DNA of 64,000 nt, taken from contig OU612066.1 of the NCBI GenBank assembly GCA_914767715.1, forward strand, positions 37,424,283 to 37,488,282, read 5' to 3'. Position numbers and translations under genes: made by a program. The notes under the pieces are model-generated. The model did no database searches, had not been told where the DNA came from, and saw only the letters and a program-made list of their open reading frames with translations. The stretch is from Membranipora membranacea (lineage: Eukaryota > Bryozoa > Gymnolaemata > Cheilostomatida > Membraniporidae). Of the stretch, positions 3,201 to 61,264 are shown piece after piece (the stretch's first letter is position 1; every line of letters starts with the position of its first letter).

Positions 3201-6200
3201 ATGACATAATTCTACACTGTTTCTAATTGTAACAAATATATTGCATTCCACTCCTCATCTTTTAAAAAAAACATTGTGACAAAAGCCTTGCAGAAAATGT
3301 CATTTGTTTCCTGGTAACTATCTTTTGTACTGCTTGATCTCTGCTACAGATTAGCACTTCAATAATGTTCGCTGGACTGTTAGGTGTGTTCGGGTGGTTG
3401 CCTCACATAGGAAAAGACATAGGTACTTTTCTACCACAACCTTGATATTTTCCATGTCACATCCAAATTGTAAGCTATTTACTGTACTATTTTGTATTCC
3501 AACCAATTTAGGGTAGATGTGATGAATGGATGACCTCCGGAACTCCCGTAAAAGGTGCAGCCTGGGCACAGTCAAAGAATTCAGTGACTCATGGAATCTG
3601 GATGTGGAGAAGGGTCTACAAGATCAAGGATAAAAATGGCCGTGAGGTAAGCTACATCATAATGAGTAAGGAGTGTGAAGCCTTGCAAAAAAATTGTTCT
3701 CAGCAATATTAGAACGTTAAGGTTCTGCTCGCCGAAATTCTTTTTGGGTGTCTCAATCCACATAATCAAAAAAGTCGAAACTCAAAATTAAGGCATGGCG
3801 TAACGTCATAACGCGACACTGAATTTCAGCAACAAGCAAGACATTCACTATGTTTCCATGTGAGTTTCGAGATCGGCCTAGATCGAGCAGAGTTGTCACC
3901 TCTTGGCTCGACCTCAAAATATGCAGCCATTCCCATGTTAGAGCTGAGAAAACAAAACATCAACAAAATCTGCCGCCGCCGGGATTTGAACCCCGGCCTC
4001 CCGCGTCAAAGTCTTTGATGCCTACCCGAGCTCGCTGTAGTGAGAACCGATATGTGCAAGCCAAACATTGGAGCTCAGGCCGATCTCGGAGGCAGTTCGA
4101 TAGCTCGAAGCTAAAGCTAATTAGCCTCAGCTCGAACTCAAAACTCACATGGAAACATAGTGATTGCAAGTTCTTGGAGCAAAAAATGCAAGTAATACAT
4201 AAAGACTACCCTTATATCATGCAGCCATAACAACAATAATGTTCAATGTTTGACTTGACTGGGAAAAAACGGCATTCAAATTCACATACTGATAGCTAAC
4301 CATAAGTGATGACAATGCTATAAAGAGAGTTAGCTGTGTCAATTGTTGTCCAAGGTGGACAAATGTGATGATCCTAGTGCTAACTTTGGTTATTTAGAGT
4401 AATAGATTCTGAGTATGATAATAACACAACATGTCTCATGGAGGAACAAAGAGCAAAGGCAAAACATGGCCACTGTAAACAGATTGTCTTCCCTTAAGCA
4501 AAGGGGAGTAAACTCCTATACAAAACACAAAACCCAAAACTACATCAGGGAGTTTGGGACCACTGGAGATTGCACTTCAGACGCACGTGACATTTGTTAT
4601 CACTATGGTGCAAGCGGTTACTTATTGTCTTCTCATGAATAAATTAGTGAATTTGGGACACTATCATATATAAGTCTGATTTATTAGTTGATGATGATGA
4701 TGATTATATATGAGGGATCAAAAGGAGCCACTGAAATGTCATCAATTTATCCTTCTGTTTTGTTGGCACAAGAGATACATCAAACTTTTCTTGAAGTGTT
4801 AATCCATCCAAAAGATATTTATTCACAATGAATAAGCATTATGATATTTGACAAGTGCCTAGTTATATCACCTCAGTGAAAGTCTGTGAGCATTTACCCG
4901 AATTCAGGTATATCAAGACTATGCCTCTCAAACATAGTTTCCTACTATAGCCTAGTTGGCAATTTTGAATTATCTTACTCCTAAATTAGTCAAAATTTTG
5001 ACAAAAATGCTCCTTAGCTGTACAAAACGAGAAGTACAAATATGTGAAATATGTTTATATAAAATTCATCGGGTGTACCCAGTTGTAGGGATTATATATG
5101 GAAATAAGGTGTTTTATTTTTACACTACATATATGGGGATATAATTCCCATTCTTACCTATTTGTTTAATCTAACCAATGATTGATTGATTGATTTATCA
5201 CTATCACAAACATTGAATGTTTCGAAAAACGGATGCATATACTTTGTCATAGTCAGAGCTTGCTACTAGTGTATGGAACTTTGGTTTTAAAAAAAAAAAG
5301 CTCATTATGTGTGATGCACATTTGTCTCAGAAAACAGTCTTTGCCTCATGAGCTGCGATATTTAACATGTCTAAGACCGCAAGAAGGGCAACGTTCAAGA
5401 AAATCGTGTATAAAATGACCTTCATCAGAAAAACAGCACATGACAATGGATTTAGTTCTCTGTTTAACAATAGTATCGAGGTCACCTACGTCAAGCCCAA
5501 ATTCTTTGCATCATTGAAAACTTTTCTGAGTAATTTCTTGTCTTTAGCATATATGCTGGTGTGCAAAACAGGCAGACAATACATTAAGAGTGAAACTGAA
5601 AAACTTTTGAACAGCATGGAAGCTAATGGCTTTGAACTCAGATACATATTTTATGCACATTATATTCGAATCTCAGTCTGTTGTCAATCTCTACACCAAG
5701 GTATTTTACCTTTCCACAAAACGACATATCGGTGCCATCTAGAGTCAGTTTAAGAGTATCAGGTTTGAGACGTTGAGTAGAGAAAAGCATTTCCTTTGTC
5801 TTATGCTCAGTTTATACATCAAATTAACTCACCCGAATTAGGGTTAATTAGGGGACTAATTTGGGTGCACTAAATGTCTAATTCGAGTGTCAGGTGACCA
5901 CTCGTATATTCGACAGTGAGTGATGAATATTCGACCACAATTTGACAGTTACTACGAGACCATGTACACTGTCGAATTATTCAGCGGATATTACATTTAC
6001 ATATAAAATGGCCGTTCATGAGTATCCTCTAGTATTTGTCATTTAATCTATCACCGATTCAAAGTGCAAAATTAGCACCTGAATTAAATTTGTGACGCCG
6101 AATTAAGCCATGAATTAAGCAATTCATTTGTAATTCAGGCAGCATTTTGGCAAATTCGGGTGACTCGAATAATGCGGCATTTTGAAAGAATGAAGTTAAT

Positions 6201-9200: not shown

Positions 9201-12200
9201 CAAGCAGGCTGGTAGAGACATAATGAACGCATTTAAAGATGTTTCAGTCTACACCTTACCACTTCCAGGAGATAAAATTATTAAGGCGAGCGAGAGAGAT
9301 ATCCTTCCCAGCTCCCCGATGATATCTGTCAGCGGTAATTTTTTCCTTCTTAGATCTTAAATAATCCTAATAATCAGATCACAATTGAGCAACTTTTGAT
9401 CCAAAGTAGATGCCAGAAAAATATCTGTAGTTTAAATCTGATGGTTAAGGAACTGTGTTTACTATGGTGATTTGATGACTTATTTTTTGGAACACAATGA
9501 AGATTTAATCTTCTATCACCTCTTGATCAATTGATCATGTGATACAATTGTCGGTAGCATGAATTAATACCATAGACATAAAAACAGTAACTCTGTTTTT
9601 ATATCTATGATTAAAACACATTAGGTATGAGTTCTGCACATATTAAAATCTCTAAAATTACTATATTTTCTTTTTACTTTTAACTTTAGAATGGTGTAGG
9701 TGAGTGTAGGGTTGGTTTAATGTGTCTCTGTTTCTACCCATGTTTATTATTCTAATGAATCTTGTTGATATTAATTATTAGTTTTCTTTTCTAGAAGAAG
9801 ATATGAAGATGTCATTTCTAGTCGCCTCCAAGGAACTATTTGATGGAATATTTCTCTCTGAATATGGTGATCTACCGACTGCTCTGCAGTTTATTTCAGA
9901 TGTAAAGGTAAAACCAGATGTCACTGTATGACTGAATTATGAATTGTTGCTCATTGTCATGTAGCCACTGCTGGCCAACTGAGTCTATCAATTGTTAGTA
10001 AATGTTTGCTATAATCAATGTTCTATCAGTAAGGGAGCAGCAGTTGCCTTTTAAAATAGTAAGACACTGTACCAAGATAGAAAAATGTGAATGTTATTTC
10101 ACAGCTAGTATACATGTACCAGTTCTGGATTCAGAGCCCACAAGGAGTAGGAGGTAGGAGGTAACTCGCAAGCATTGGAGGTCTTGGGTGCAAATCCTGC
10201 TTGCCGATTACCAACTGCTGGGCTCAATTGACGCCACAGGTGTGCTCTTACCTGCCCGGAAACTGAGAGCAACTCGGCGCCGAATATGGCGGCTGCGCCC
10301 ATAAGGCACTTTTATTTCTCAGTTTTTGGACAGAGACAGACTTGCAACCCCTTTAACCCTTTTTAACCCAAAGCTTAGATCACAGAACTATATTTTCTGA
10401 AGCAACTGGTATTGTGCAATCATATCATTTTGTGGACTCAATGTGTTTTGGCACCAGCAAACCAGGGGCGGGCATGACACAGACACAAAAAAATATTGAA
10501 CAGCGACTATATATATATAATATATATATATTATAGATATGATCAAATAATCAAAGAACATTGTTAAGCTTGGATAAAAATCAGTTTTCACGGTTATGAG
10601 ATAAGGTGATATTATGTAGGTATAAGTCACTGAATGTGTGCAGGGATAATCTTTTTGTATGTCAATGATTAACAAGAGGATTGAGCGGGACGACTAATAC
10701 GCCATTTATATGGAGAATAGCACAGGTAGGGTAAGAACTTTATCGGCCTCATTACCTTAAAAGGCAGAAAATGTAGCACCACACACACATCTTGTGTACC
10801 AAAATAAAAACTGCCACACACAGAGTAATAAAATAGAAATTAGACTAACCCGCTATATGACGGGGTTATAGAAATAATATATTCAATCTCAAAACCAATC
10901 ATATTTTGTTATTTATAATAAGGGAACAATTTTTTTTTTACCTCAATGATTAGCAAGACAACCTGTGATGCCCCTTTAGGAAAGGCACAATATCAAACAC
11001 AAACCCAACCTCTTGCAATTACAGATCTAGCTGGTGTTTTACCACTGAAATTTCATCCCAACCATATAAGGTGTATTCTATCTCTTTTACTCAAATACTA
11101 CACGTCAATGACAGCTACTGACAATGAATTTCAATAGACAGTTTCTGAGTTCTGATTTAGGCATCAATTCGGAGTTGTCCTCTCTCCAGTTTGGTACTTT
11201 TAACCCATGTCGCATAGGAAAAACGTGCTGAAAAGAGGGTTATCTTGAGTACCGTTTATGATAGGGTAAAAATTATTTTTGATTCAGAATCTGCAACATT
11301 GAAAACTCATACGGACATAGTTTGGGAAATAATTTTAGTATGTGGATAGTCAATTATAGCATTTTCCGCCTGTTTTGCGGACAATTTGGCAGAATTTTTC
11401 ATGATTTTCGTCACTAAAATTAAGATTTAACAATATTCAAGCCTCCAATGATGTGCAAACCCTGTCTCTTAGGGTTTTCAATGGTGCAGACTCTGAATCA
11501 AAAATCATTTTTGTCCTAACATGAGCAGTTTTCAAGATAACCCTCTTTCAGCAGGATTTTCCTATACGACATGGGTTAAAATTACCAAACTGGAGAGAGG
11601 ACAACTCCGAATGGGGGCATAAATAAGAGCTCAGAAAACAGTCTAACACAAGTTGAACAAGTAGCCTGTCGAAAAACTGACTGGAGGAAAACAGTCGGCA
11701 GCTAACTCCCGCCTTTTGTAGTAGCAATTTAAATCGGTTCTGACTAAGACTTTTATATGCAGGTTCAATGTAAGATGAGTGTAAGATTTGGTGTTTTGGT
11801 TTGGCTATGTTTTTTTCTAAACTCCCTCGGTCGTGGTCACTAGCGTTTGTATTGCCGAAACTATTCACCTCAGGTATTGAAACAATAAATGCTTCTGTTT
11901 TTTAATAAATTTTTCCTCCGGAGCTGAAGATCAAGTGAATCTTTGGATTTTAAATTTACATACATACCTGTCCAGACCGACTCTGGATTTTCTAGAATTT
12001 ACAAAGTTTCAAATTCGAAGGGAAGTCAGGGCATGGTTATCAGTCGAAAAGTTCTAGGACAATAGGGAGATAGCACCACCATATTTTAAGTCTTCATAAC
12101 TTCAATCTTCAGTTGAGAGGAATATAGAGGGCTAGTGGCTAGTTTCATTGGATTTAAAATTCCGCCTTTTCACTTAATATTAATTCCCTTAAATATTATA

Positions 12201-15200
12201 AGATGTTTGCAAAGTTACCAATGTTAACATATATTAGGGTTCTCAAAAATAAAAAATTACTGATAATTTTACCCATTTTACTCTTCTGCTAGGTCACTAA
12301 ATTTAAATCCATGAATATTCTCATCCTGTTGGGTATTGTGAATATAGGTATAGCCTATCTTGACAAGATTTGTTGAGGCAGCTCGTTTGCAAGAGTCCAA
12401 CCTTAGAAAATTTGAATCAGGCAGGACGTAATTTATCAAGCAACATGTTGCAGACTTTAGTCCCTAGCCAATGTTATCGATATGTAAAAGGTACAACATA
12501 TTTGGATGGATAACATAGACTTTATCATTAGGTCCATGTTTGATATAAAGCTTTTTAGATATCCCTCCACCACCACCACCACCACAGAGGGAACTAACTT
12601 GTTCTATAGATATCACTGGTAAACAATTTCAAAGATCAAATGATTTGTTTAATTGTCACTCACATACAAGTATGTTGCGAAATCGGTTGTTTGATACTCT
12701 GCTGTTCACATAGAGCAAAGAAGAAAAAACGAAAAGAACATGAAGAAAAGCTGACATCTAATTGTGGATTTGGTTAAAATAATATTATTGAGGGATCATA
12801 AAATCATGTTGCATAAAAAACTGTCGTTCCCCCCAAGAAAAGCTATTTTTTACTGTCATGTATCTTCATGATGGAAGCTTTGGTCAAAAGTCATTTATAA
12901 AATGGTCATCATCATGTATGTAGTTCAGTATCAGGTTTTTGGTTATTTTATCTATAATGCCATCAAGCAGTAATATATGAGAATATGAAACTATTGCGCT
13001 GAATTCTTCAATAATTCTTTAATTAATTTAGACTCACCTTCGAACAGAAAACCACTGTTTAATTGGAGCAAGCCTATGTAGTTAGCCAATGGGATTTCCA
13101 CCGATATGGTTTTATCAATGTCAATGGAAATTTTTGACTAATTTCCTAAAATAATTCAGTGCATTCCTTGCAACGCAATAATACTGCTCGTTTTTTTTGT
13201 TTCTGCAACAATTTATTGTATTTAAAATCGATGGACTAAAATAGTGAAATAAAAGAAGGCAGCGGCATAGTCAGATTGGTCCAGGACTAGTGTGGCGACC
13301 ATCCGAATGTCTGGAAAACGAAGGACTACTGCTCCCAGGGCGAGCCCAGACACGCAGCCTACTCAGCAAGAAGCAAACCACTACCCCACAGCGAGGACGC
13401 CAACCTCCCACTCAAAGCAGAAGGAGCCGCCCCCTCCTCCCCCAGTAGGTGTGAATTCCACAGGTTAACACCTGTGGGATTCAGTGACCTCTCCCCTCTA
13501 CAGCTGTTGGCTCTCTTAGGGGCAAGTTGTTCCTTCGACCTAGTGGCTGTAATGGCAGGGGTTTGAATTTCTAACTCCCCATTTAGGCGAGTTTTATTAA
13601 AAAGTAACAAATAGCGGTATTTAAAAAGCATCGCAATGGGCATAATTTGATAATTTAAAAAAAAAGAGGTCACAGGACCATGTGGGCGGATTTTGAGTAT
13701 TATGACACGAAGAGCTGATTTTTGAAGTAAATAGATGTTAAGATGACAATTTGCAGCATGACCATAAAACTCAATACCATAAATTGAATGTGGATAAAAG
13801 AATGTGTAATACAAATTGATCATTGTTGGAATATCGAGATATGGTCGTACACTATGCATTAAAAATTTCCGACAAACTTTTAAAATATGTGTTTTAATAA
13901 TGATGCTCTCATCAAGATGAATGCCGAGAAATTTAGGGTTATTGTTTGTCTCTAAAACCTGATTACCAAGTTTAATTTGGTACTGTTCAGGATCTAAAAT
14001 TTGTTAATTTTAGGATTCAAAAACTACCTGAAATGTTTTTGTATGGTTTAAAATCAATTTATTACTCAAGCACCATTGTTCAATTTTATGAAAATTTGAT
14101 TTTAAAATTTCGGGATCATTGGAAAATATATTTGTGTCGTTGGCAAAGAGAATATATTTAAACATTGGCGCAGATATAACCAAATCATTGATCAATATTA
14201 AAAATAAAATTGGACCTAATAAAGATCCCTGTGGAACTCCTATATCGACCTTTTTCATTGTACTTGAATGATCGTTGATTTTGGCAAATTGTTTTCTGTT
14301 TTCTAAATAAGATTTCAACAAGTCACATGCATCACATGCTAAAAATTAAAAAAGGCAATTTTTTGATTTAAATAACATGGTTGATGGTATCGAAAGCCTT
14401 GCTGAAGCCTAAAAATATTCCTTGCGTAATTTTACTGTTATTAAAACTGTCGTACAGATGTTCTATTAGTCTAGATATGGCAGATGTTGTGTTCTGCTTT
14501 CCTCGGAATCCGAACTGGCTGTCAACTAAACTATTACAATTTTCCAAATAAAAACATAGTTGGCTAGCTAATTCTTTTTCCGCAATTTTAGATATTGCAG
14601 TTAATATTAATATCGGCCAATAGTTGTTACAGTCAAATTTATCACCATTTATATGCAGTGGTCGTACTCTGTGGCAATTTTCTGGCTATCTGGAAATTCT
14701 GATGTTCGAACAATAAGATTGATCATGTGGATCAAGATTGGGCTGATAGCATTTTTATTTTCTTTAATGAATTTCATGGAAATCCCATTGTACCCAACTG
14801 CATTTTTTGCAGAGGAATTATTTATGACACTCTCTGTAATATCATTTGTAATTTCTGAGAAGTCAAAATTGTTAATTTTGTCGTATTTTGACAAATAAGA
14901 TAATGGGGAAGCTCCACATTTGGCCTATTACATGTATCATGTATCATGTATCATGTATCATGTATCATGTATCATGTATCATGTATCATGTATCATGTAT
15001 CATGTATCATGATACATGATACATGATACATGATACATGATACATGATACATGATACATGATACATGATACATGAAACATGATACATGATACATGATACA
15101 TGATACATGATACATGATACATGATACATGATACATGATACATGATACATGATACATGATACATGATACATGATACATGATACATGATACATGATACATG

Positions 15201-18200
15201 ATACATGATACATGATACATGATACATGATACATGATACATGATACATGATACATGATACATGATACATGATACATGATACATGATACATGATACATGAT
15301 ACATGATACATGATACATGATACATGATACATGATACATGATACATGATACATGATACATGATACATGATATGACTCATCTAATTAGCGCACCCCTGTAC
15401 AATGTAACCGTGGGCAAGCTAGGCCATTGATCGGAGAGCTCACCTCCTTCAGCAGAATGGGTAGCGACCAGTATTCGCACCTGCAACTCTCAGTTTGAGA
15501 AGCTCGAATCCTAACCACTACGCCACCCTGCCTGCTGGGTAACCACTACGCCATCTAAAATGCTGTCTTTCGTGCGGCCGCACCGTGTTGCCGACTCAAT
15601 AATATTAAAGAAGCCATTCATGCTCATAATTCTCATATAGTCTAGGGTAAAGTTATCGGTTTCATTTGAAGCATTTATGTAAAAATTTAGATCACCAACA
15701 ACTATATAGCAGCGCCTCCCAGTCCATCAGAAAAAGTCATACGAACCACCATAGTCTCCGATCCAGACAACTGCACATCCGCCACACTAGCCTCAAACTC
15801 CTCTGATACATACATAGCAATTCCACCGCCAGCGCCATGAAACCGACAAAACATTTTATAGCCATATAGTGAATACTTCTTTAAAAATTCATTTTGTGAA
15901 AACCAAGTCTCTGAAATGGCAATACATGAAAAATGAGCATTGAGTTGAGCTAGCAGTACTTCAAACAAAGGCATTCTGTTGACTAGACTTGCATATTGAT
16001 GTGTAAAATTGTAAAGGATCTGGTGCTAAAATTTTTAGGTATTAACAGATCCTGGGCTAAGATTTTGAACATGATTAAAGAGTCAATGAATAAGCGGAAT
16101 GATTTTATGAGCTATTGACTTTTCGCATTCTGAAAAAGTTTGACTGGCAATTTAGACAGAACGGTGGTTCAACGAGGCATCAAATGAAGCACACACTGTT
16201 AAAATAGTCAATAAAATATATGAAATTCTTAATTTCAAGAATTTTTACTGTGAATATGACAGTCTCGCAATATTCAAAGTAAATTTACCCATCACAATAA
16301 TTATTCAGCTCTTATAAACAATCGTTGTCTCAGGCAATTAGGCCACAGTATGTCAGTGCATGAAAAGGCATCAGAGATTGAGACACTACCGTGGCCCAGA
16401 AAGCCGGATAAAATAAACTTATCTGCTGTGAATTAAATTTAAAAAAAGGCCTGAATTGAATTAAACAATTCATTGAATTTAATCAAACTTTTCTGCATCA
16501 AACTTATCTGCATTAAACTTTCAAGTTCTGCATCAAACTTTTAAGTTCTGCATCAAACTTTTCTGTTCTGCGTCAAACTTTTCTGTTCTGCATCAAACTA
16601 TTCTACGCTGAATCAAACTTTTCTACTGGAATCAAACTAATTTCAACTACCCTATATTATATATTATTGTATGTAGGTCCTAGGTCTACAATGATGAAAA
16701 TAACCAATAGGTTGTCAAGATTTTTTACTGTACATCAAACTTCTCTATATTGGTGTTTCTCAGTAGCTGATTGGTCAACAGGAATATTGCATGGGCACAC
16801 ACACTACAAAGGTATAGCAATTACAGCACCGGGTCCCATACACTAAATACCAGGTATCATTATGAAATATCAGTATATAAGAAGCTATGATAGTCAATAC
16901 CATCACTTTCAGGCTGTCATTCATTCGGGTTGGACAATATTCCGTATATTGCTGATAATAATGACCATGATTTGTGAAAGCTGCAAAAGGACCACTATGC
17001 AAGGGGCAAGCTTCTGCCACCACTGCGGAAAACAACTCAAATTTGGTAAGTTATTCTCTCGTGTTTTCTGAATTCACATTTTAGTAATGATGACAATAAT
17101 GCAGTCATTTTGAATTTTGCCTCACAGAATATTTTATTGATAGAATAAAGATGAAAGATGAGCAGGTAACCAGCTATTTTTGGGCATTCCGCGTACAATA
17201 GTACGTAGCTGGTTACTCATCTTATTTGTTACCATACATGCAGGTCTAAGATTTGGTACCATACAGGCTGTTATCCTCAGCTTAATAAACTACAAAATTT
17301 TAATCTGGGAATTTTAATAATACACAGGGATAAGAAATCAATATATTTATAAAAATTTGCTGAATTTTTGAATAGCTTTGACAGCAAATGGAAAATTCTT
17401 ACAAAATGGTACCTGTTGTCGTATACAGTAACAATGAAACCTCAGTTTCATTTGTGGGCCTAGCCTAACAGTCCTCTTATCATACTTGTTTCATTAGTCA
17501 GCAAACAAGCCTAGTTTTTGGGAGCTAACTTTAATAGCAATATATTTATATTTAATAGGAATTAATGAGGGTGTCGGACGTTCCAGTTCTGCAAGCTGTG
17601 CCAGTTCAGCGATGGGACTTACTAAGTTTTTAATGCTGAAAAACAGCAAAGGAAAAGAGCGTACTGGTAAGCATACATTTGATAAAATGATTTCTATACA
17701 TACATGCATATAAAAATATTTATATACGTATATATATATATATATATTATATAAAGATTTAGTTAATCTTTGCCTTTGACGAAATAGGGCAACTTAAATT
17801 CCAATGAATATTACTGTCGGTAAGGGAGATCAGGCTCCTTTTTTTTCAGTAGTTCTCAACCTCTCAACAACAATTCTGGTATGCTGACTTGCTTGGCTTA
17901 TCATATGTAGCCGGTGATACACCACTATGAAAAAAATGTAGCCAGTAAATTCCGTTGATCACTATTGAAAACATTTTTACTGGTTAAACTACGCTATGCA
18001 ACGCTGTAGCCTATATGAGCCAAATTATTATACCTATTTATTTGCTGCTTGTTTGTAGCTGGTAGCTTGGCAAGGAAAGGGCTTAGTCGAAATCCATCTC
18101 TCAAGAATCATCGAGAAAAGGTAATGTACATGCACATTGTGAAAAGAGATACAACCTGAGTGTAGATGTTTATAGAGCACATTGTATTTATTTGGACTCA

Positions 18201-21200
18201 CAATAAAAAAGTCTGATCGAATATTCAATTAACTTCCTACACCTTGCTCTCATGTTTATATTATGCCTAGATTTTTTCGAACAGTTGACACAAACACAGC
18301 ATCAGCTCCATGGGATTCTCCCCCATAATCAACTGGCAATGTGATTCATTTCACACAGCTTTTCAGTGTATATGCAACATAGTTTAATTCCAGATATTAC
18401 TGTATCAAATGGAGTAGAATTTTTCAACCAAAGTCTAACGCATATAAAAAACGAGTTTGGAATTATTGCTTTGCACACATCAGTCTGTCGGGTACCCTGA
18501 TTTTTGAAAGCCCATTTGATGACGGCTTACAAATAAGCCCACCCCAAATAATTATTTGATCTAAGCATCCAGCCCTCAAGTCCTTCACAGCGGTTCCAAA
18601 AGGTATTACAAAATGCAAAAATGCCTGATAATCAGTGATAAAAAATAAACTCCTCTACAAAATTCCCATAAAAAGACAATAAAAGTATCAAAATCCATCC
18701 AGCCTCTGAATTTTTTCGTACAAAACTCACCTTATTTTGGTGTGACCTGAAGGGAAAATAGCAATCACCCAATGCTGTATTAATGCTAATTTTATGACAT
18801 GTTTTGCAGAAAAAATTTGGAGCGCCTTAGCACAGTGTGATGCAAGCAGGTCCCACATTCGAGGAGCATCAAGGCTGGTATCCATCCCATGTGTGTCAAC
18901 AGCCTTGTTGATACGGGAAGCACTAGCGGTAAAGCACACCGTAGAGACAGCACATCTCGTAGGTGGTGCTAGTGTACTTACTGGTGCAAAGTTGGTTGAT
19001 AATAAAGGTAAGCAAAACTCTTTAAATGATTTCATTTTAGATCAATTACGACTCGGACGTAACATTATTCTGCATCATTTTGAAAAATCAAGATTGAGAT
19101 AGTAGCCAAGCAAGTTTTACACTACAAAATGTCAAAATTCATCAAATTTATGATCAAAATGATATCAAAAAGAATTTTAGCAGATGTTGGAGTTTTATAA
19201 TATCTCAATGAGAAATTTTTTTACATTTTGCATGTTAGTGGAATTCAAATTTAGTAAACATATGCTAATCTGTAATGCTGTATATTATCTTTAGAGGTGT
19301 CTTTATTTGTGTGTTACTATATATGACTCGCTCACCATTGCCTGTTTTATCATTTTGGTATGAATTTCATGTTGGAGTTTATGACCAAGGCAATTTAAAA
19401 AAAATTATGGTCCACTTATAAGTGTTTGTTCTTCCAGCGTGATTGTTTATTACATAAAAATTTTCACAGGGACTAGGCCCACTGGAACAATAGACCTTAA
19501 AGAATTATCTGAAGCCCAGGGGTTGCCCATTAGTCGGTTAAAACTACTACTGGAAATCGACAATGGTGGTAAGTTTCAATTTATATTTCATTATTTAAAT
19601 TTTGTAGTTTTTCTTGGCTGCGATATGATTTAAAAATATAGAATAAATGTCCAGCTTTGTTATAACGATCCCAGTAGGCCTATAAAAATAACATCTAGCG
19701 TACTCGGAGCTGTTACTGGTTTGCAAACTGACAATATCCTCCATTTGTGTATGAAATTATTCGGAATACATAACAGAACAACCTTTTGAAATATGGTAGG
19801 CCCTACACATTACTGCCAGTTGACTAAAATCATAAAATATTTTCAAAATTTTACTGTGGTCTTATTTATTCAAACTTAAAACTTACAGCCCACCTTAAAT
19901 CAGAAAGAAGTTGCTAGGTTTTTTGAGGTTTGACCAGTCATACATCAGTCATGAGGAGTAAATTGTAAAACGTTAGCGACCTTTAGGATACTGACTGAGC
20001 AATGTATGGACATTGTATTCTGCTAGCTTGACAATTTTGGGCGTGGTTGGTTAATTAAAATTATTTGTATTTCCATTCTCAATCAGTGTATTGGGATGTT
20101 TTTTTAACTGCAATTTTAGCCTGTTCATATTATCAAAATAGTATTATCTCCTGTGTGGTTATTCAGCAACCCACTGGTGTGAATTGTCATGTATGTATCA
20201 GTATCAATTAAAAGTTTGACAAATTGTTTATAATTGTGGTATTAGGTCAGACTCGTACTAACAGAATGAATAAGGTTTTACGGTGAGGATTGTCATCAGC
20301 AAAACCATAATAACCATTATTGTCATTACCTCAGGAATTATGTATAGAGCAGTTTGGTGGATGATTTCCTGAGCATTCGGCGATTACTGAAGAAAACCCG
20401 ATCCTCTATTGCACTACGAGCTGCCTGTGTAGGAAATGGCATGGAAATAGACTTTAAATCTAGTTTATGCAAGTCTTTATGAGAGAGTAAGAAACTACAT
20501 GGACAAGAATGTCCTAGTTGCAAAAATCGACACAGGCAGCTCGTAGTGCAATAGAGGATCGGGATTTCTTCAGTAATCGCAAATGCTCAGGAAATCATCC
20601 ACCAAACTGCTCTATACATAATTCCTGAGGTAATGACAATAATGAATTCTACAACAATCTAGATGAGGTCACTACAAATATGGCCTTATGGTTTTCCAGC
20701 GACAATCCTCACCGGAACCCTTATTCATTCTGTTAGTACGAGTCTGACCTAATACCACAATTATAAACAATTTGTCAAACTTTTAATTGATACTGATACA
20801 TACATGACAATTCACACCAGTGGGTTGCTGCATAACCACACAGGAGATAATACTAATTTGATATATGAACAGGCTAAATTGCGGTTCAAGAAAACATCCC
20901 AATACATTAGGAAAGAGTATTTACCTAGGCAATACATACAGATGTAATAGTAGTATTGCGGAGGTTTTTTTCAAGGGGCCAGCCTCTACAGGGATAATTA
21001 TTTTAATAAGAGCAAATGTCATGAAATAGAATTGAATCCGTAGGATGCCAGCTCTTTGTTTTCTATAAGGTTGTATTGCTTTGCATCAGCAGAATGTTAT
21101 ACAATTTTTGTTAACAATCTGACTCATGCATACTCAGACTCATACATGATAATAGCTTAGCTTCAGCGTAGAGCCTACAGAAATTCGTGAAAGAATGGGC

Positions 21201-24200
21201 CCAAAGGGAAGCGACTTTCTGTCTGTCGAGGCAATCAGCAATTTCTTTGATGCTACGCTTCTCACATCTATGTGCTGGACATTAAGAAATAAAAATCTGT
21301 CTAGAAAAGCAAACAGAGGGTCTCCCTGTATATACCAGTATAAAAAGAGATGAAAAGGAAAACCTGAAAACCCCTAATTGAACAAGTGTTTGAATTTGTT
21401 GCTGATAAATCATTGAAAATCAAAGGGGGGTGGATCAGTGTTGAAGTACATGGTTAACAATAGCTGACCTAAACTCAAAGGAACTCAGACTTCCAGCCTT
21501 TTATCTGTTATGTCACAACAACTATTACTGTTATCTTACTATGGTAGTTGGATTTGTCAATATTTTTTATAATTCCTTTTATACTTAATACTTGTACCAG
21601 GGAGGGTGCTTGTACCTAATATCAATTGTCAATTATCTACCTCCAATATACACACTTAAAACCAATTCAATCTAACAATTAGGTCATAAGTATGTGGGGT
21701 GCACTTGACAGCCGTTGGGCGAGGGGCAAAAGTCTTGGGGGCTCAGACTAGCAAACAGATCAAAACTGCCAGTAACTTCCCAAAATCTGGAACGGAAGCA
21801 CAACTAATCTTTACCAACCAATATAGATGTGCATGCATACTAGTAGTTGTAATCAAAAGGTTCACAAATAATTGTTTGTACAACCATTTCTATTACAGGA
21901 AATCGGGACGAATTTGACCGATCTGATGCCGGATCTGATAGTGAGAGCCTTCCTGACATCAGAGTCCACATCAACGAGGTAACTAAGACTGAACCAAAGT
22001 CACCAAGTCCAGAGCCTTCACATGCAGAGTCATCATTGGGCGAAAATGTGGTGCATATTATCAGTGATTCTGATGAAGAGATGGAATTCCATGCAGTATT
22101 TCCAAGGTAAAACCAGTAGATCATAACAAATTATGCCAGCAAAGCAATCAATATGAAATTTCATGACCAGCCATCAACCTACACTGTTTTTTTTTACTCA
22201 TTGCAGTTTGCCTAGGTGCTCTCAAAGCCATACAATGGCTTTGGATTTGGGTGCTCTTACACTTGAGAATTTAAAACATTTACTTCTCAAATTCTTTTAT
22301 TTCTCAAATTTGCTGAAATCTTTATCATGCGTTAGATCCATAGCCACTAATTTCCAATCTCTCCACTTTAAGACTCCATCCAGTTAGGCTATACCCAGAT
22401 ACAATGGGTGAGATGAGATAACAATGATGTTTTCTATGTTCTGCGAAATTAAATTCTTTATATATTATCTTCCTGTAGACCTAAGGGTAGAGTTCCCTCA
22501 AAATCAAATCCTTATAGATCGCTAATTATTTCTCACATATCATGCCCTGAACTCCTAGGAACCAGAACCTTGAATATCTCATGTTGCCACCTTAAGGCTA
22601 GGTCAAGAAAGATTATGCTATGCACACAAAAAAGGTGTATCATTATATTTCCGCATCATTTTGATGAATCCATGTTGAGATAGCTAAGCATGTTTTACAC
22701 TACAGGGACCGGTTTCAATTAGAACACTCGTTTAAAAACTAACTTTCAAGAGAACATTCATAATAGTTATTAAAATCTGTTGATGTTGACAGAATTGAAT
22801 CAGTTGCTATCCTCTGACTAAGTAAGTGAAAATTTTAACAGATGTTTGATTTGGTTGGTCTGTTTGATTCCGTCTATATTTATCATTGTAGTATTGAATC
22901 CAGGTCAGACAATGATACTGAACTTTAAATATCCAGCAAGCGCTGCTGGAACAGAATACACGGAAAGAGCGTAAACCTGACAGGTAAGTCACAGATAGTA
23001 TAGACCTACTAGATCACTTATCAGATTCAGAGATAATAATATCAGGTATAATAATATCAAGATGTCTTGCTCTTGATTCCATTGTGCCATTATGCCAGGA
23101 CGTAGGATTATGTGAAAATATTATGAAAAATAAAATGTGAAATTTGTTAAATGGCTAATCAAATATTGATGAGTCCATTCAACCAAACCCTAGCTCGTAG
23201 TAGCGCTGTATTTAGCCAGTAAAATAACGACCTGAGCGGGTAAGGGTAAGGGAATAATATGGGGCTGAGCCTCGCGCCATTGTGCGGTTACGTGATTATC
23301 TAACGACATCAACCTAGTAAAACTTGGTACTTCTGTCCATGGGCGTATATGCAGAAAATCTGACTGCCTAGTTTTAGCGTCCAAGACAGGTTTTGTGGGG
23401 AAATGTTGCCTTTTCAGTCCCTTAAAGTCATTGTATGAGTGGAGCTAGCTCGAAATAGGTGTCAAATTTGGATTCAGCATGCCCAAAAACCCATATAACA
23501 ACTCTTTGTTAAGCCATTTTGACATACTTAGTCCGTTTATGATTTTCTAGGACATGTGAATTGTCCAACGCTGATCCATGAGAGGATAACTCCCACCTCA
23601 GCACCTAGATGGCTTGTTTCTAGCAAGCCTGGCAGCACTTGCTTGTAGCATCTGCACCAATAAGTTTGAGGGTTGCTCCCCTATATCATAACTGAACTAT
23701 TCAAAAACGGTTTTTATGAAAAGTTATAAAAAAAACCATCCTGCTGGGAACTGCACTTACGGACGAACCTCATACCAATCTTTCTCTCCCCTTTTTTATA
23801 GAAAGCTAACCCCTGAGGAGCTATCAGGAATTCTGTGAGGTGTTGCCTCAGATAATGTCAAAGGGCCGTTCCGTAGAATCAAAGTTGGTAGACGCCAGGT
23901 CTGGAAAACAACTGAGGCACGATGGCGCCTCGCCAGCTTTCGCGGCAGGATCGGGAGAATTCTGGTGAAGTTCACTGGAGAGGAGCTTGGTGAGGAGCCA
24001 TCTGCTGACGATGGAGGGCCGAGAAGGGAATTCTTCTCACTGCTGATGGAAGCAATAACTCTTAACAGTGGAATGTTCACTTCAGGTAAGCCAAATAGAT
24101 CAATCAGATCAATTAGATCCAGTGGTTCCTACTCTCAGGGGTTGATAGCTGACCGGATAGGGTTTTGATAATCAGCTAGAGAGAGATATTTGTGAGATCT

Positions 24201-27200
24201 TATGAGTAAAACATTTTCAGAGTTTTGTGTTCTTTAACTGCTAGAATCTTGATGTTGATTAATGTCGTTATTTGGTTGACAAAGTAAAATATTAATAATA
24301 ACAAAGTAAAATATTAATAATAATAAGAATATTGATAATAATAAGAATATTGATAATAATGATAATTAGCTCATTTATTACCCGCTTTAAACTGCACCGA
24401 GAGGGTATCTATTAAGCCGTGGACACTACATTATCATAGGAAAAGAAATCTGCATTTAGCTTGTGATACAGTATAACAGATATCATTATAAGATGTCCCT
24501 GGTGTCCCTAGAAAATCTATAAATATAATCCTAATAACTTATATTATTATAGTTTAAGGGCTCAAATGGTTTTAAAATGGGTTAGTGGCGCCACTAACCC
24601 ATTTTATAGTCATAAATGGTTCAAAAACACTAAATTGAGGCATAACAAATCATATTTTGGACTCTTTTGATGGATTTTTGTTGAAATAACTTCGAATTCG
24701 GAACGTTTACCTGTTCACCATAGTCAAATATAAGCCCTGGCACACGATAGTATATACATACATATACCAAATAATACCCTCCCTGCAAGTTGTGCTTGTG
24801 CATACAGAGGATGAAGTTTGATTGAGGAAATAGATATGTAGGACCTTTTATATGGGAGAATACATTAATCATTCAGCACTGTTTCCTATATCAATTTGCA
24901 TAGGCTCTACATGTACATGTAGATAATATTATTGAATTTCCCTGATTGTTTTTAATTTCAGTTTATGGATATGGTGCGTAGTCATGGCCTAGCAGACATC
25001 CTTAGGTACAAGGCTAGAGCGAAGCCACTTTCTGCCTCAGATGTGCTCAAAACGTTCAAAGTTGAACACAGCCATAACGAAGGTCGCCGGGCCCAAGAGG
25101 AAGTCGTGATGACAAATATGGAGGCTTTCATTGACATGCTCGAAGGTATTGCTCTGGCAACAATAACCCAGTGTGTCTTTACTTAAGTATTGCCAAACTC
25201 TAAAAATACCAGTGTTGTTATGACAATGAGCATGCGAATCAGGTACTATTGGTAAAGAGGTGCAAGCGCAAGAGCAGACAACTACATAAACGTATATAAA
25301 ATATTAATATCTCATTGAAAAGATAAATGAAAGCACATAAATTCAAAAGCCTTTGTGTAGTAAAACCAGTGGAAAACCAGTATTGTATTATTGAGGGTCA
25401 AAGGGAAACAATTTCTCAATCATGCTCAAAAAATTTGTTTATGATGGTAAATTGTTGTCATCAAATCATTCAAGCATTTATATAATTTCAGATGGAAATC
25501 TCATGATTAATCTCAATGAGATAGCTGAGGTCAAGATTGACGGTGTGTCCCAAAAGCCAGCAGAGCATGAGGAGTTGGTGAAGCTTGCAGAAAAGCTGAA
25601 ACCTCACCACATCCTGCAGTACGCCACTGGGGCTGCCGGCATGCCTGGTAGTGGATTTGGAGTCAAGCCCACCATCACATTCAACGCTCCTGATGATGGT
25701 GATTCCTACATTCATACCAGCACCTGTGCATGTCGGCCATCATTACCTGTGACAAACACCACAAAAGACATGAATGGATTCATTTTTGTGATGTTAGTTT
25801 CACTGAGCCATGGCGCAACATTTTCCACGACATGTCAATCTGTTCCTATATGTCTTGCTGATTGAAATAATTACCGATTGATATGTTGAGCATGATTTTT
25901 ATTATCATATCAATCAGTAATTTCAAAGCCGTAATACATGTATGTACTTGTAAATAATATTTCATAGGCCTAATTCATGTTTTTTTGTGAAACGAATTTA
26001 TTATTGTAAAATGTATTAATTGAATTTTATATGTAGTATCAAACAGCAATTTGCGCTTGGTATTGCACAATTGTCATTTCCTTCTGTATGCAATTAATAC
26101 AATGTAATATACAATGGAGTTATTGACGATAGAAATAATGAATGTGTATCTACATGTGTGATCCTTTGTCAAAACCATTCCAACTTTGCTGGATGGCCAT
26201 CATAATTTTGTAATATAGTATCCATAGAAAAAGGTTAACATGCTTGATTTCATAACCACTCTAAAATGTTCTGATCAAACTTATTCGCCTTCCATTTGAG
26301 ATCCGACATCTCTCACTCTGAGATATGCAGCCTGAGCATGTTGGAGGGACTCGATTCCGTCCAGTGGAATGTTCATGTTGTTGAATACTTGTTCAAAATA
26401 CTCATCAACATCAGTACTTCCTGTTGTTGTTTCTTGTAGATAATATGATTGCCTCACATCTGCGTCATTCAAATGATCCTCATTTATCGCATTTCCGCAG
26501 CTTATCTCATTGCTGTGCAGTATGTCTTGCTTCCCAACCCCACGGATAGAATGCGCATTCCAATAATTCACAAAATCATTGAGTTGTCTCTGCAAGAGAT
26601 CCATATAACAGTACCTTACACATGCTATTTCAATGTCACTTCCATTAAACTGGCCATGAGCGACTACTTCTTGAAAGTGCTCCCTCCATCTTTGCAGACC
26701 CCCTCTGTACAGCAGAATAGACCAAAGAGCTTCTATGCGTTGATTGTTCTGTGATGTTCCATAAAAGTGCTTTGCTCCTAAAAATTCTTGGATCGTTGCT
26801 ACATTCACGTTTTCAGTACCTCTGTCACTACGGATTATAGCTGGCTGCAGCTTCAAATGTCTTATCGTCTCAACATAGAAACTTGCTATAGCTACCGAAT
26901 TATTGTTTGATGAACATACTTTCAACCACAGCACTTTCCGAGAGAAACCATCGATACAACGGTGAATGCATAGGCCATAAGGTTTAAGTTTGTCATGTCC
27001 GTCTATATGCCAAACATGATCTGGCCCTTGTGACTCATACGTTCTTCTCTGAAGACGGCGTGATCTTCTTGATATAGTGCCCAGTGGATCGGTGTGTCGC
27101 ATTACTGTCATGACATCATTCCGCCTTACACAAAGGTCATGCTTTAGTCTTAGTCGCATAGTCATCTGGCGATATCCGCAAGCTGGATCTCTGTCAAGAT

Positions 27201-30200
27201 CATCCTCGATCTTTGCAAATATTAAATCCCAGTCTCCATCAAACCTTAAAATATAACAGAAAACTGTTTGGAAATTAAGATTACAGGAGGGGTATCAGAT
27301 ATCATGATGTATGATGGTAAATTTCATTAATTCACAGTTCTTCATTTCACCAAGAAAGGGTGATTTTATTGATCACACACATTGTTGAATTGGTCACAAA
27401 CAAACAAGTAAGGTTGATTTACCAAAAGTAATTACAGAAATATAGGCTACTTAACAATTAATAAGCAAGAGGTAATCATACCTGCGCACCCCAATGTTGA
27501 ATTCTGCAATAATTTCTTTGAGTTTGCTGTGACTCAATGAGATTCTATGTCGATTTCTCAGAAGTTGGATGATCTGAGTATGTGTAAATCTTTTTTCTGA
27601 TATAGCTGTTCAAAATGTCTGGGAGAAATGGATTGCCCATGCTGCCGGACTGTGGCCTTGATAAAGACTGCCATGCAGTTCAATTGCAAATCATCAATGA
27701 TGAAGTGAAATGAAAGCTTATTGGCTATGAACTATTGGTAGACTGAGGACCTACATACAGTAATACATAATATAAGGTGGTTGATATCAATGGAGCAGAA
27801 AAGTTTGGCTCAGAGTATATAGAAAAGTTTGATGCAGAACATAAAAGTTTGATCAATGAGTTTAAAAAAGGAGTGGAAACGGCCTCTCATTTCAAATTAT
27901 TGTTTGTTTCGACTGGTAGTTGTCCTCTCTTTATCAGCAAAGGTCTCCATGACCACAGCCAATCAGAGCAGAGACTGCAGAGAGTGACTTCCTGCCAAAA
28001 AGAAGTACAACTTGAGTTGCTGTAATAATGTTGATGAACTGTCCAATCAGCAAGAGCATAGTTGTGAAATCCCATTTATCAAGATGGGTTCTACCACAAA
28101 TTTCCTAAGTGTTTGAACCTCTTGAAAAGAAACTAAACTAAGTAGCAGAGAGATATAGATAGCACTCAGGTATAGTCCATGTTTCACACTATAGTCTAGT
28201 TTTACCTGGGACTCCAAAGCCCTCTGCTACTCATATGAGAAGGGAAAGTTTCACTGCAGACATGGCCATACATTTGCCTCATAATTTGGTAATCAATGGC
28301 GGTTTTCATCAGTCAAACGTGGTATGTTATGCCTCCCATTGTCACTTAGGTGTTAGAAAGGACTTATTTAAGTACTTTCACTACTTTTATCTGGTCTAAG
28401 TTCCTCACATGGTTTTTAAATGGTGAATGAATGATTTATTTTCAGTCTCTCTATCCCCCATCAAACATTTGCATTGGAATTATAATTCAATACCCTGCAA
28501 AAGTGGTTACTATATTACTAGCTATGTCTCATCTACACTTGTGGTGACTACATCATGATATATTGTCTCTGGGTGTCTGAATATACCATTGAGTAAACAT
28601 GTCAAATATTTTAATAATTTTCAACTGGAGACAGACATATAAAAAGACTGAGGACTTAAATGAATTTTAATGGAGGGACCATATTAGTACAACCCTTGGA
28701 AACAGCCTTGTTAAGTCACAGGCTACATTTCGTTTCCACTCCCTCTCTGTAACTCCCTGGTTTGATGCAGAATGAAAGGTTAGATGCAGAACTTAAAAGT
28801 TTAAGTTTGATGCAGAACTTAAAAGTTTAATGCAGAAAGTTTGATGCAGTTGATAAAATTAAAATCGAAAGTTTGATTAAAATCAATGAATTGTTTAATT
28901 CAATTCAGGCCTTTTTAAAATTTGATTCACAGCAGATAAGTTTAATTTTATTCGGCTTTCTGGGCCACGGTAAGACACAGATTACTGCAATGGCAAGTCA
29001 TGATACATTAGACATTGGACACATTTCCATGGTGTTAACGTCCAAAACTATTCTGCCCATCTTACCGAATGAATTTAACTCCCGCCCATGCCAATCCAGC
29101 TAGGACTGTCTGCCAATCATTTTTCTGGCTATCAATCAAAAAAATTGTCTATCAGTTTATGCTCCTCCAGTAACGCCTGTAACATATTCAGTTGGGTTAG
29201 ATAACCATGTCAGATAAATTCAATCTAAGTATTTATGTTTGATGGTAAATGATGGTCTTACTCAAGTAATTCAGTTCTGGTGAATTTTGGCTTTAGTACT
29301 GAATTAAAAAGACCAACAACCATCTGCATCTTTGATATATCCCTACAGGATGAAGAATTTTGTTGGAGTTTAAATTTTGCCTTTTCACTAATTCGCTAAT
29401 GATAAATTCGCTAATCATAAGATATTTTCAACCTTGGAAGATTTCAATCAGAAGGAACCCTACTCTCAAGCAATAGCATATTTTAAAGATATCAAATAAA
29501 CATCAAGTTCTGTATAGGATAGCTCAGTGTCATTGTGTCGTGAACAATGCAAGGACAATGAGCCAGGGGGGCCAACTAGAAAGTTATCACTATTACATCA
29601 CTCAAAATAATCACTCAGATTGCGATTTTGGCTGTTTTCTAATTGAAAGAACCCTTGTAAAACGAGTTTTCAGTCTGTGCATGTGCAAACTGTTGCAGCA
29701 TAGGGCCTGAACTAATTCGTATAGATGGAGTACCTAGATTTGAAAATAAAATTGAAAATAATAGTGTGGAAATATATGGGCCTCAATGGAACCAGAGAGG
29801 ATGGATGGAACATTGGTTTTGGTGTCACATAGCTTCTTATCTGAGAGTTGTCTTTCTTCAGGGAAGGCTACGCCACCATTCAGTAACGCTCACTCCAGGT
29901 GGGAGGCAAGGGGCTCAAACTAGAGCAGATAATTTAAAAGACTGTCGTTAGGCGACGAGTTTTCATACTGCCTGCAGGAGAGCCTAGCGACAAAGTGTGT
30001 TTCTGCCGCAGAACTCCCGAGTTCAAGGTTTTGAGATACGAAAACCAGTGTTCCATTGAGGACCAAATATTTCCAAAAGATAGATTTCAATTTTTAATTT
30101 TCCAATTCAGGTACTATGCTTAGGTGAATTAATTCAGTCCCTATGCCGCAGAGACAACTTATGTCTCAACAGGTTGCACATGTGTAGAGTGCTGACCTTT

Positions 30201-41265: not shown

Positions 41266-41605
41266 CGCGACAACTTGGCCCGAGCCAAACTTGGCCCGAG
41301 ACAAACTTGGCCCGAGCCAAACTTGGCCCGAGACAAACTTGGCCCGAGCCAAACTTTGCCCGAGCCAAACTTGGCCCGAGCCAAACTTGGCCCGAGCCAA
41401 ACTTGGCCCGAGCCAAACTTGGCGCGAGCAAAACTTGGCCCCAATTAATAAAACTTGGCCCCAAATACTAAAACTTGGCCCCAGATACTAAAACTTGGCC
41501 CCAGATACTAAAACTTGGCCCCATGCAATGAAACTAGGCCCCAATTAGTAAAACTTGGCCCAAAATACTAAAACTTGTCTCCAAATATAAAACTTGGCCC
41601 CATGC
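41266..41605. repeat. left minisatellite arm
   Basis: About nine units of a 16-bp ACTTGGCCCGAGCCAA repeat, then about seven units of a 20-bp AAACTTGGCCCCAAATACTA repeat. Confidence 0.9.
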
Positions 41606-45169: not shown

Positions 45170-46347
45170 CAGCCAAGTTTTATTTATTGGGGCAAAGTGT
45201 TACTAATTGGGGCTAAGTTTTACTGATTGGGGTCAAGTTTCATTGCATCGGGCTAAGTTTTACTAATTGGGGCCAAGTTTCACTGCATTGGGGCCAGGTT
45301 TCATTGCATCGGGCCAAGTTTTATATTTGGGGCCAAGTTTTACTAATTGGGGCCAAGTTTCAGTACCTGGGGCCAAGTTTTACTAATTGGGGCCAAGTTT
45401 CACTGCATTGGGGCCAGGTTTCATTGCATCGGGCCAAGTTTTATATTTGGGGCCAAGTTTCAGTACATGGGGCCAAGTTTTATATTTGGGGCCAAGTTTT
45501 ACCAATTTGGGCCAAGTTACAGTACTTGGGGCCAAGTTTTACTAATTGGGGCCAAGTTTCAGTACTTGGGGCCAAGCTTTACTAATGGGGGCCAAGTTTC
45601 ACTGCATCGGGGCCAAGTTTCAGTACATGGGGCCAAGTTTTATATTTGGGGCCAAGTCTTACCGATTTGGGCCAAGTTACAGTACTTGGGGCCAAGTTTT
45701 ACTAATTGGGGCCAAGTTTCAGTACTTGGGGCCAAGTTTTACTAATGGGGGCCAAGTTTCACTGCATTGGGGCCAGGTTTCATTGCATCGGGCCAAGTTT
45801 TATATTTGGGGCCAAGTTTTACTAATTGGGGCCAAGTTTCAGTACTTGGGGCCAAGTTTTACTAATTGGGGCCAAGTTTCAGTACTTGGGGCCAAGTTTT
45901 ACTAATTGGGGCCAAGTTTTACTAATTGGGGCCAAGCTTTACTAATTGGGGCCAAGTTTCATTGCATGGGGCCAAGTTTTACTAATTGGGGCCAAGCTTT
46001 ACTAATTGGGGCCAAGTTTCATTGCATCGGGCCAAGTTATATATTTGGGGCCAAGTTTGGCTCAGGCCAAGTTTGGCTCGGGTAAAGTTTGGCTCGGGCC
46101 AAGTTTGGCTCGGGCCAAGTTTGGCTCGGGCCAAGTTTGGCTCGGGCCAAGTTTGGCTCGGGCCAAGTTTGGCTCGGGCCAAGTTTGGCTCGGGCCAAGT
46201 TTGGCTCAGGCCTAGTTTAAGTGCTCAAACGGTGCAAGATGCTGGTAGAGGCATTTCATTATCAACCACTTTGGTTGATAATGAAATGCCTCTACCAGCA
46301 TCTTGCACCGTTTGAGCACTTAAACTAGCTCAGGCCAAGTTGTCGCG
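45170..46347. repeat. right minisatellite arm, expanded
   Basis: About 45 units of roughly 20 bp (GGGGCCAAGTTTTACTAATT and CATTGCATC variants), then about ten 16-bp units GGCTCGGGCCAAGTTT. This is the left arm in reverse complement and about three times longer. Open frames here are repeat artefacts. Confidence 0.9.
46213..46327. mobile_element. perfect 115-bp palindromic insertion with 9-bp duplication
   Basis: Two 56-base arms are exact reverse complements around the 3-base loop CTT (46269-46271), with ends TAGTTTAAGTGC. GCTCAGGCC flanks both sides (46204-46212, 46328-46336). The target is itself a tandem array, so the duplication could in principle be neighbouring units. Confidence 0.85.
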
Positions 46348-61195: not shown

Positions 61196-61264
61196 CTAAA
61201 ATCAATATAATATATTATATGAAATGTTAATATATTACAACAATATCATTAAATTAACGAATAA

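Follow-up and report, generated by a model that had tools for sequence, protein, structure and literature searches.

Does the gene for a HECT-type ubiquitin ligase that lies between the ends of a transposon in the bryozoan Membranipora membranacea belong to this element, or did it get there by chance? The window (the whole stretch of 64,000 nucleotides that was analysed) maps to chromosome 2 and contains an element of 12,586 bp (16387-28972) that carries a HECT-like gene on the plus strand and, on the minus strand, a gene for an rva_4 (IS3EU-like) DDE integrase. The following features were assigned:

16381..16386, left target-site duplication AGACAC, read from the sequence, exact
16387..16700, plus strand, left terminal inverted repeat starting with TACCGTGGCCCAGA (exact), about 105 bp strong with weaker similarity to about 300 bp, including a 20-bp subterminal tandem array (16507-16638)
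16961..17045, plus strand, putative exon 1 of the HECT gene, bordered by a GT donor and containing the zinc-ribbon CESCKRTTMQGASFCHHCGKQL (DZR, E=1.7e-4, under the Pfam cut-off)
17573..17666, plus strand, open frame bordered by a GT donor, possibly another HECT exon
19469..19568, plus strand, open frame bordered by a GT donor, possibly another HECT exon
20087..20906, long hairpin within the putative HECT gene (arms of 148, 63, 51, and 44 nt)
21899..22106, plus strand, putative exon of the same transcript with AG and GT at its borders and the acidic motif VVHIISDSDEE (from 22048)
23855..24085, plus strand, HECT N-lobe exon, motif GGPRREFFSLL
24962..25145, plus strand, HECT exon preceding the C-lobe (FMDMVRSH...EAFIDMLEG), borders read; its phase fits the C-lobe exon, not the N-lobe exon
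25492..25865, plus strand, HECT C-lobe exon with stop codon (25863-25865)
26281..27294, minus strand, main open frame of the DDE integrase/transposase, rva_4 (PF24764)
27454..27731, minus strand, integrase coding sequence upstream of the main frame, spread over two frames that overlap (through a splice or a broken frame)
27854..28759, segment of some 0.9 kb inward of the right end without counterpart in the short copies shown
28740..28972, minus strand, right terminal inverted repeat with subterminal repeats (sequence comparison), ending in TCTGGGCCACGGTA at 28972 (exact)
28973..28978, right target-site duplication AGACAC, read from the sequence, exact

The inverted ends and the exact AGACAC duplications outside both of them, as described in the initial annotation, were thus recovered. 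The arms revealed few gaps and mismatches over about 105 bp, and subterminal repeats of 20-26 bp extend the similarity inward. Filing the element under IS3EU also proved sound: TA..TA termini, a 6-bp target-site duplication, and an IS3/IS481-like DDE core with rva_4 and rve above cut-off are all present, and IS3EU/GingerRoot transposons (Repbase; PMC10045372) share the retroviral-integrase-fold DDE transposase, TA..TA ends, and 6-bp duplications, the latter being given for fungal TET+ elements as well (excerpts of PMC12730594). The window element is best read as one long and probably decayed member of the IS3EU/GingerRoot-type DNA transposons. A Polinton/Maverick or another large virus-like element would fit the 6-bp duplication, the long inverted repeats, the rve-type integrase, and the size of more than 12 kb, as Polintons also generate 6-bp duplications and encode an rve integrase, but this reading is most improbable and was rejected because large open frames are absent. 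The longest in the whole element reach 337 and 156 aa, and nothing among the open frames points to a protein-primed DNA polymerase B or other virus-like genes; the TA..TA ends and the rva_4 core also speak against it.

The minus-strand integrase matched rva_4 with E=2.8e-33 and rve with E=6.6e-8, and all three catalytic positions were located (D, D, and E codons at 27001-27003, 26824-26826, and 26731-26733), the second D and the E being 30 residues apart, compared to 35 in a second family described below (family 2). It is the sole copy of its kind in the genome, the next best match being 33% identical.

The plus-strand gene, initially annotated as a multi-exon HECT gene, is a real HECT relative, as its C-lobe and N-lobe motif match the HECT protein of family 2 in the correct order (E=8.8e-6 and E=0.017, the latter searched in the 12.6-kb element), but its Pfam HECT scores of 15.2 and 14.3 bits (E=0.017-0.032; C-lobe exon E=0.017) stay below the cut-off of 23.9. 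The catalytic Cys codon (25725-25727) lies within HTSTCACRPSLP and aligns with STCANQMYLP of family 2. The N-lobe exon alone yielded no Pfam match, and for the exon at 24962..25145, which we take to be part of the gene because of HECT features, no significant match in Pfam or to the family-2 HECT was found. A complete N-lobe was not found either: residues 106-239 of the family-2 protein remained unmatched (best E=3.5, with a stop), and the N-lobe exon is out of phase with the exon that follows. The view that this copy encodes an intact ligase was not supported; with HECT below cut-off, the middle of the N-lobe missing, and the N-terminal part of the integrase in two frames, the copy is probably damaged. 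A crude join of the HECT exons of this damaged copy was used for a public protein search, in which none of 6566 word-sharing candidates reached E<=1e-3, and the predicted fold of the C-lobe exon alone revealed a mean pLDDT of 37.9. A genome search with the C-lobe exon (four places, 14/14 candidates scored) identified at least three other loci at 35-41% identity; since family 2 was absent from its matches, this count is a lower bound, and it is within this search that the window C-lobe stands as the sole one of its kind, the next best being 41% identical. Upstream, VVHIISDSDEE presumably represents a SUMO-interaction-like motif (unscored), and the zinc-ribbon exon putatively belongs to the same transcript. 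G2E3-like HECT proteins carry N-terminal PHD/RING fingers; the few open frames scanned in the window revealed the zinc-ribbon exon only and no PHD/RING.

The left end of the window element recurs at 40 or more other places of the genome with 88-92% identity (79 matches counting extra pieces; 40/201 candidates scored), of which the best 20 were read. In 17 of these a second end was identified within 10 kb, and 16 of the 17 displayed an exact 6-bp target duplication, so that the ends are mobile. The exception, L020, has GATTTA on either side, but three bases off the left end. TA was found at both ends of 16/17 two-ended copies, L021 having TC at one end; in L034 the outermost 17 bases of the second end fail to align, and for L022 and L027 no second end was found in the fetched regions. 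Contrary to what had been expected of other copies with these ends, no HECT C-lobe was detected in the 20 regions; the cores of both genes are absent from the copies read. Shared with the short copies are one arm and the right flank of the hairpin at 20087..20906 and part of the upstream integrase region (27594-27853), and no match to the segment at 27854..28759 appeared in the four copies shown, their blocks ending at element positions 11467-11481 and restarting at 12374. In the fetched flanks of the 17 copies, three short matches to the shared internal segments lay outside the elements; as far as these flanks go, the segments are element-specific.

A further gene pair was found in family 2, which consists of five near-identical copies. 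Its HECT exons join in matching phases to a frame of 320 aa that exceeds the Pfam cut-off (32.4 bits vs 23.9, E=1e-7, C-lobe at residues 245-311), and its integrase matches rva_4 with E=7.5e-59. A PDB search with the HECT protein, a predicted ubiquitin ligase by its domain match, revealed AREL1 (E=4.3e-5) with one N-lobe and one C-lobe stretch. Where compared, the integrase and the last HECT exon of the four remaining copies were 99.2-99.6% identical and free of stops. Inverted ends were sought by comparison of two copies and not found; homology reaches the left edge of the fetched sequence and breaks on the right, possibly at an insertion in one copy. Terminal inverted repeats and target-site duplications enclosing a HECT-integrase pair were thus seen for the window copy only.

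Genome-wide searches for both protein families, rva_4 and HECT, revealed how often the two genes occur together. A HECT C-lobe lies within 3 kb of 10 of the 22 rva_4 loci (from 25 matches; 51/51 candidates scored), in nine cases tail-to-tail with the integrase and once, on C5, in a different arrangement, while random placement gave a mean of 0.02 pairs and a maximum of two in 20,000 placements. The 32 HECT loci comprise 31 clustered from 70 matches (74/74 candidates scored) and the window locus, which the PF00632 search missed and which was added by hand; without it, the two protein-family searches alone yield nine pairs. Among HECT loci, 10/32 thus neighbor an integrase, namely none of the 16 host-like loci with at least two matching pieces and 10 of the 16 with a single, C-lobe-only piece, and the Pfam match at paired loci spans the C-lobe only. 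No HECT was detected within 5 kb of the remaining 12 rva_4 loci, several of which are fragments (C5:27171101, C11:11335033, and C8:10610219 are substantial). A first impression, from about 1.4 kb of sequence downstream, that two further families lack HECT was corrected by the genome-wide search for C8:20758680 and C3:24728108, where HECT sits just beyond that stretch. Two HECT copies on C5 and C10 are 93% identical over 1.25 kb, and downstream of them no integrase was found within the 1.6 kb (C5) and 0.9 kb (C10) that were read. Neither protein family was detected in 14 control genomes, which has no bearing on animals.

Since the ten pairs include five near-identical copies and two of one other family, the independent lineages come down to three that were compared with each other and two more. 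Integrase identity is about 31% between the window and family 2, 30% between the window and the C8:20758680 family, and 52-54% between the latter two; C8:10479378 (two stops in the integrase match) and C5:26632819 were compared with the window only (25-27%). The pair hence recurs with three or more diverged integrase lineages; a number of four or five is probable.

Accidental capture, i.e., a host HECT gene or fragment caught between two transposon ends without any role, might be suspected from the degenerate window gene, its C-lobe without close relatives, and the short copies lacking HECT. It is improbable and largely refuted by the genome-wide pairing, which involves several diverged lineages with the same orientation at nine of the ten loci; HECT is not chance cargo, and the proposal that the ligase travels with the element is supported in this genome. 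Repeated independent gains, in which transposon families would exchange HECT genes among themselves, as is the case for TET/JBP genes in fungi, and HECT would not be ancestral, fare better and are a possible, if less favored, explanation. With 51% identity, the family-2 integrase is nearer to L016/L017, where no neighboring HECT was detected, than to that of the window (31%), and roughly the same distance separates the HECT C-lobes of the window, family 2, and C5 from each other. However, the tail-to-tail placement recurs in the window, family 2, C8:20758680/C3:24728108, and C8:10479378, as expected for common descent. Altogether, HECT is likely to be an accessory gene that has been conserved within a clade of IS3EU-type transposons.

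Such an element would carry two convergent genes, one for an rva_4 DDE transposase, which may bind the subterminal 20-26-bp repeats, cut at the TA ends, and insert the element with a 6-bp stagger, and one for a HECT-type ubiquitin ligase acting as a conserved accessory factor that could help the element to evade or tune its host. As the role ranked first, we tentatively suggest that HECT targets proteins of host silencing or repair, perhaps those modified by SUMO, for degradation, since SIM-like motifs (unscored) occur in an exon that precedes the HECT exons in the window as well as in family 2. Ranked next, and somewhat less likely, is an action on the transposase itself (turnover, autoregulation, or transpososome disassembly) instead of on host defence; the convergent position at nine of the ten linked loci and the regulation of other transposases by proteolysis would suit it, while the SIM-like motifs hint at SUMO-modified targets. 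That HECT is ancestral to one clade of IS3EU-type transposons in animals, acts against silencing under the guidance of SUMO, and was spread through animal genomes by these elements is a bolder and rather doubtful extension. Should HECT prove to be a regular component of these elements, they would offer a natural system for finding host proteins that a transposon needs destroyed, and a route for the multiplication of divergent HECT genes in invertebrate genomes.

A transposon-encoded HECT ligase appears to be undescribed so far. In the library searched, no paper combined IS3EU and HECT, and among the matches listed for 'HECT domain' and 'transposase' none dealt with a transposon-encoded HECT by title and start of abstract; HECT and ubiquitin are not mentioned in the main text of PMC10045372 on IS3EU/GingerRoot, nor does the word HECT occur in that of PMC4255032. 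The closest parallel are the fungal TET+ IS3EU transposons (excerpts of PMC12730594), which share the 6-bp duplication and the presence of accessory genes, with transposase and alpha-kinase genes oppositely oriented, similar to the convergent pair here; yet their accessory genes encode a TET/JBP dioxygenase and an alpha-kinase instead of HECT in an animal, and their ends read TAYGG..CCRTA, unlike TACCG in the window. Like AREL1, UBR5, and E6AP, the transposon HECT has a GGPRxEFF-type N-lobe motif and a C-lobe with catalytic Cys, but it is very divergent, lies beside a transposase gene, and revealed no known substrate-binding domain. To our knowledge, only few transposons carry accessory genes that may fight host silencing. 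Transposons of several superfamilies encode Ulp1 and OTU proteases, and thus likewise an accessory gene of the ubiquitin/SUMO system; these proteases take modifiers off, whereas a HECT ligase would attach ubiquitin.

The two ends TACCGTGGCCCAGA and TCTGGGCCACGGTA enclose 12,586 bp (16387-28972) and are flanked on either side by AGACAC. They align closely with each other over about 105 bp, followed by 20-26-bp subterminal repeats, which likely form a transposase-binding array. Searching the 339,339,785-bp assembly (18 contigs), where the window spans C2:37424283-37488282, with the left end resulted in at least 79 matches, and at least 40 places beyond the window matched it at 88-92% identity (40 of 201 candidates scored in both cases). 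Among the best 20 of these 40 places, which were read, 17 revealed both ends at a spacing of 2.2-3.5 kb. An exact 6-bp duplication was present in 16 of these 17 copies, region L020 being the exception, so that the ends are those of a mobile transposon family that moved with 6-bp duplications. In region L034, the outermost 17 bases of the second end failed to align, and in L022 and L027 no second end was found within 10 kb. Three features published for IS3EU/GingerRoot, namely TA..TA termini, 6-bp duplications, and a DDE core, were found in the window element. A Polinton identity was rejected based on its open frames. The following coding parts, several of them putative, can be read in the element:

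16961-17045, plus strand: possible upstream HECT exon with a zinc ribbon (DZR, E=1.7e-4, under its cut-off)
21899-22106, plus strand: possible upstream HECT exon, acidic and SIM-like, putatively part of the transcript
23855-24085, plus strand: HECT exon encoding GGPRREFFSLL, AG/GT borders
24962-25145, plus strand: HECT exon, AG/GT borders
25492-25865, plus strand: HECT exon with HTSTCACRPSLP and the catalytic Cys codon at 25725-25727, AG/GT borders
26281-27294, minus strand: main frame of the integrase (rva_4, E=2.8e-33; rve, E=6.6e-8)
around 27454-27731, minus strand: upstream integrase part in two overlapping frames, with a possible splice or frame break

In the integrase, D, D, and E are all in place, with 30 residues separating the second D from E. 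The genome holds no second copy of this kind (30 matches; all 34 candidates scored): the next-ranked match was 33% identical, another reached 39% across 128 residues, and a few short fragments were 45-53% identical. Among 823 public candidates, 230 related proteins were detected at E<=1e-3. The best relative among the matches listed (at least 120) was 96% identical, and the others listed came, by source name, from fish, scallops, a mussel, and insects.

Concerning the HECT gene, exon 24962-25145 joins 25492-25865 in phase, whereas 23855-24085 does not join 24962-25145, so that something between the latter two is missing or unread. With Pfam HECT, the gene scored no more than 14-15 bits, below the cut-off of 23.9, and the best PDB match was AREL1 (E=0.0094). 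The HECT gene of the window copy is probably non-functional or badly shortened.

The initial annotation had regarded the HECT gene as carried by the transposon, and its co-occurrence with the integrase was borne out elsewhere in the genome. A profile search with PF24764 (rva_4) gave 25 matches (51 of 51 candidates scored), clustering into 22 loci, and PF00632 (HECT) gave 70 matches (74 of 74) at 31 loci, to which the window HECT, missed by this profile, was added by hand (32 in total). In 14 control genomes, neither family had a match, a result uninformative for animals. Pairing was tested up to 5 kb, and all ten pairs found lay within 3 kb, namely the window, C3:10076109, C4:27007531, C7:6384137, C7:6632102, C7:6991498, C3:24728108, C8:20758680, C8:10479378, and C5:26632819. 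Random placement of 32 loci gave a mean of 0.02 pairs and a maximum of 2 over 20,000 trials. Apart from the C5 pair, all were oriented tail to tail (9 of 10). Of the 16 HECT loci matched in at least two pieces, which are host-like genes, none was paired; among the 16 matched by a single C-lobe piece, the window included, 10 were. No HECT was detected within 5 kb at 12 of the 22 rva_4 loci, some being fragments and others (C5:27171101, C11:11335033, C8:10610219) not, though these absences are weak because PF00632 misses the window's own HECT. Matches of both families, linked and unlinked, are concentrated at C5:26.3-27.9 Mb and C8:10.48-10.61 Mb; these stretches may be rich in transposons or contain nested elements.

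Five of the ten pairs belong to a second family (family 2; C3, C4, and three on C7), whose integrases are 30-33% identical to that of the window, each with a HECT C-lobe nearby on the opposite strand. These copies are 98.5-99.0% identical to the C3 copy over the 2.0-3.7 kb compared. In the C3 copy, the HECT gene was read as five exons with consistent phases and a 320-aa frame (Pfam HECT E=1e-7, above cut-off, covering the C-lobe at residues 245-311), and AREL1 matched one stretch each of the N-lobe and C-lobe (E=4.3e-5); the integrase revealed rva_4 at E=7.5e-59. No stop was found in the compared stretches of the integrase and last HECT exon in any of the four other copies (partial integrase in L018). 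A search of the window element for family-2 HECT residues 106-239 revealed no convincing counterpart. C3:24728108 and C8:20758680 look like one further family; the window, family 2, and this third family showed 30-54% identity to each other. The integrases at C8:10479378, with two stops in the match, and C5:26632819 were compared with the window only (25% and 27% identity). Since only the former three were intercompared, the pairing spans at least three lineages, and probably four or five.

Of the short copies with related ends, those shown in detail matched the element in blocks of conserved order, at about positions 1-250, 727-1152, 4248-4965, 11208-11467, and 12374-12586 from its start (L020, L025, L036, and L037; L022 and L034 likewise in part), L027 matching the element end only. 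They resemble deletion derivatives whose source element had the same layout as the window copy. No HECT C-lobe was found in any of the 20 regions read. Blocks 727-1152 and 4248-4965 fall within the span bounded by the putative first and the C-terminal HECT exon; because the core exons of the gene lie in the stretch absent from the copies shown in detail, these copies are no proof of HECT in their ancestor. A nested multi-arm hairpin (20087-20906, arms 82-100% complementary) lies within the element, and the sequence of one arm is matched by short copies.

Among the unpaired HECT loci, C5:27908059 and C10:11570180 share 93.4% identity across 1,253 bp, mostly non-coding, and are thus also dispersed copies; no integrase was found in the 1.6 kb and 0.9 kb read downstream, respectively. 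The regions concerned (L044, C5:27908000-27909999; L045, C10:11569300-11570550) display a divergent HECT gene duplicated across two chromosomes. Both share 45 bp at 89% with 24547-24591 in the gap of the window HECT gene, perhaps a small dispersed repeat.

DDE integrases insert with a stagger, which here would be 6 bp. Altogether, HECT is probably a conserved accessory gene of IS3EU-type transposons, its protein presumably acting as an accessory factor. Within the literature searched, no paper joining IS3EU and HECT was found, and such carriage appears new in that scope. Conserved accessory genes of selfish elements usually counter the host or regulate the transposase. In fungal transposons, IS3EU among them, an accessory TET/JBP gene is thought to aid escape from methylation-based silencing (PMC12730594). 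For HECT, we tentatively favor, though at less than even odds, a role in degrading host proteins of silencing or repair; control of the transposase or transpososome is somewhat less likely, and other roles take the remainder. Unscored SIM-like motifs occur in the window (VVHIISDSDEE) and family 2 (DSDEDIEVVSE), in exons putatively belonging to the transcripts.

Further repeats were noticed in the window. Fragments resembling, by eye, a LINE reverse transcriptase and endonuclease lie at 13359-14345 and 15702-16025 on the minus strand (Exo_endo_phos E=0.0056 for the endonuclease, below cut-off), separated by a 7-bp minisatellite (14931-15371). Two long arrays at 41272-41602 and 45172-46218, built of related tandem units of 16-20 bp (AACTTGGCCC.. 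and GGGCCAAGTT..), in opposite orientation and about 3.6 kb apart, resemble subterminal arrays of another transposon. Finally, hAT-like transposase fragments (59767-61245, minus strand, by eye) precede a satellite array with 6.7 copies of a 353-bp unit (61387-63741).
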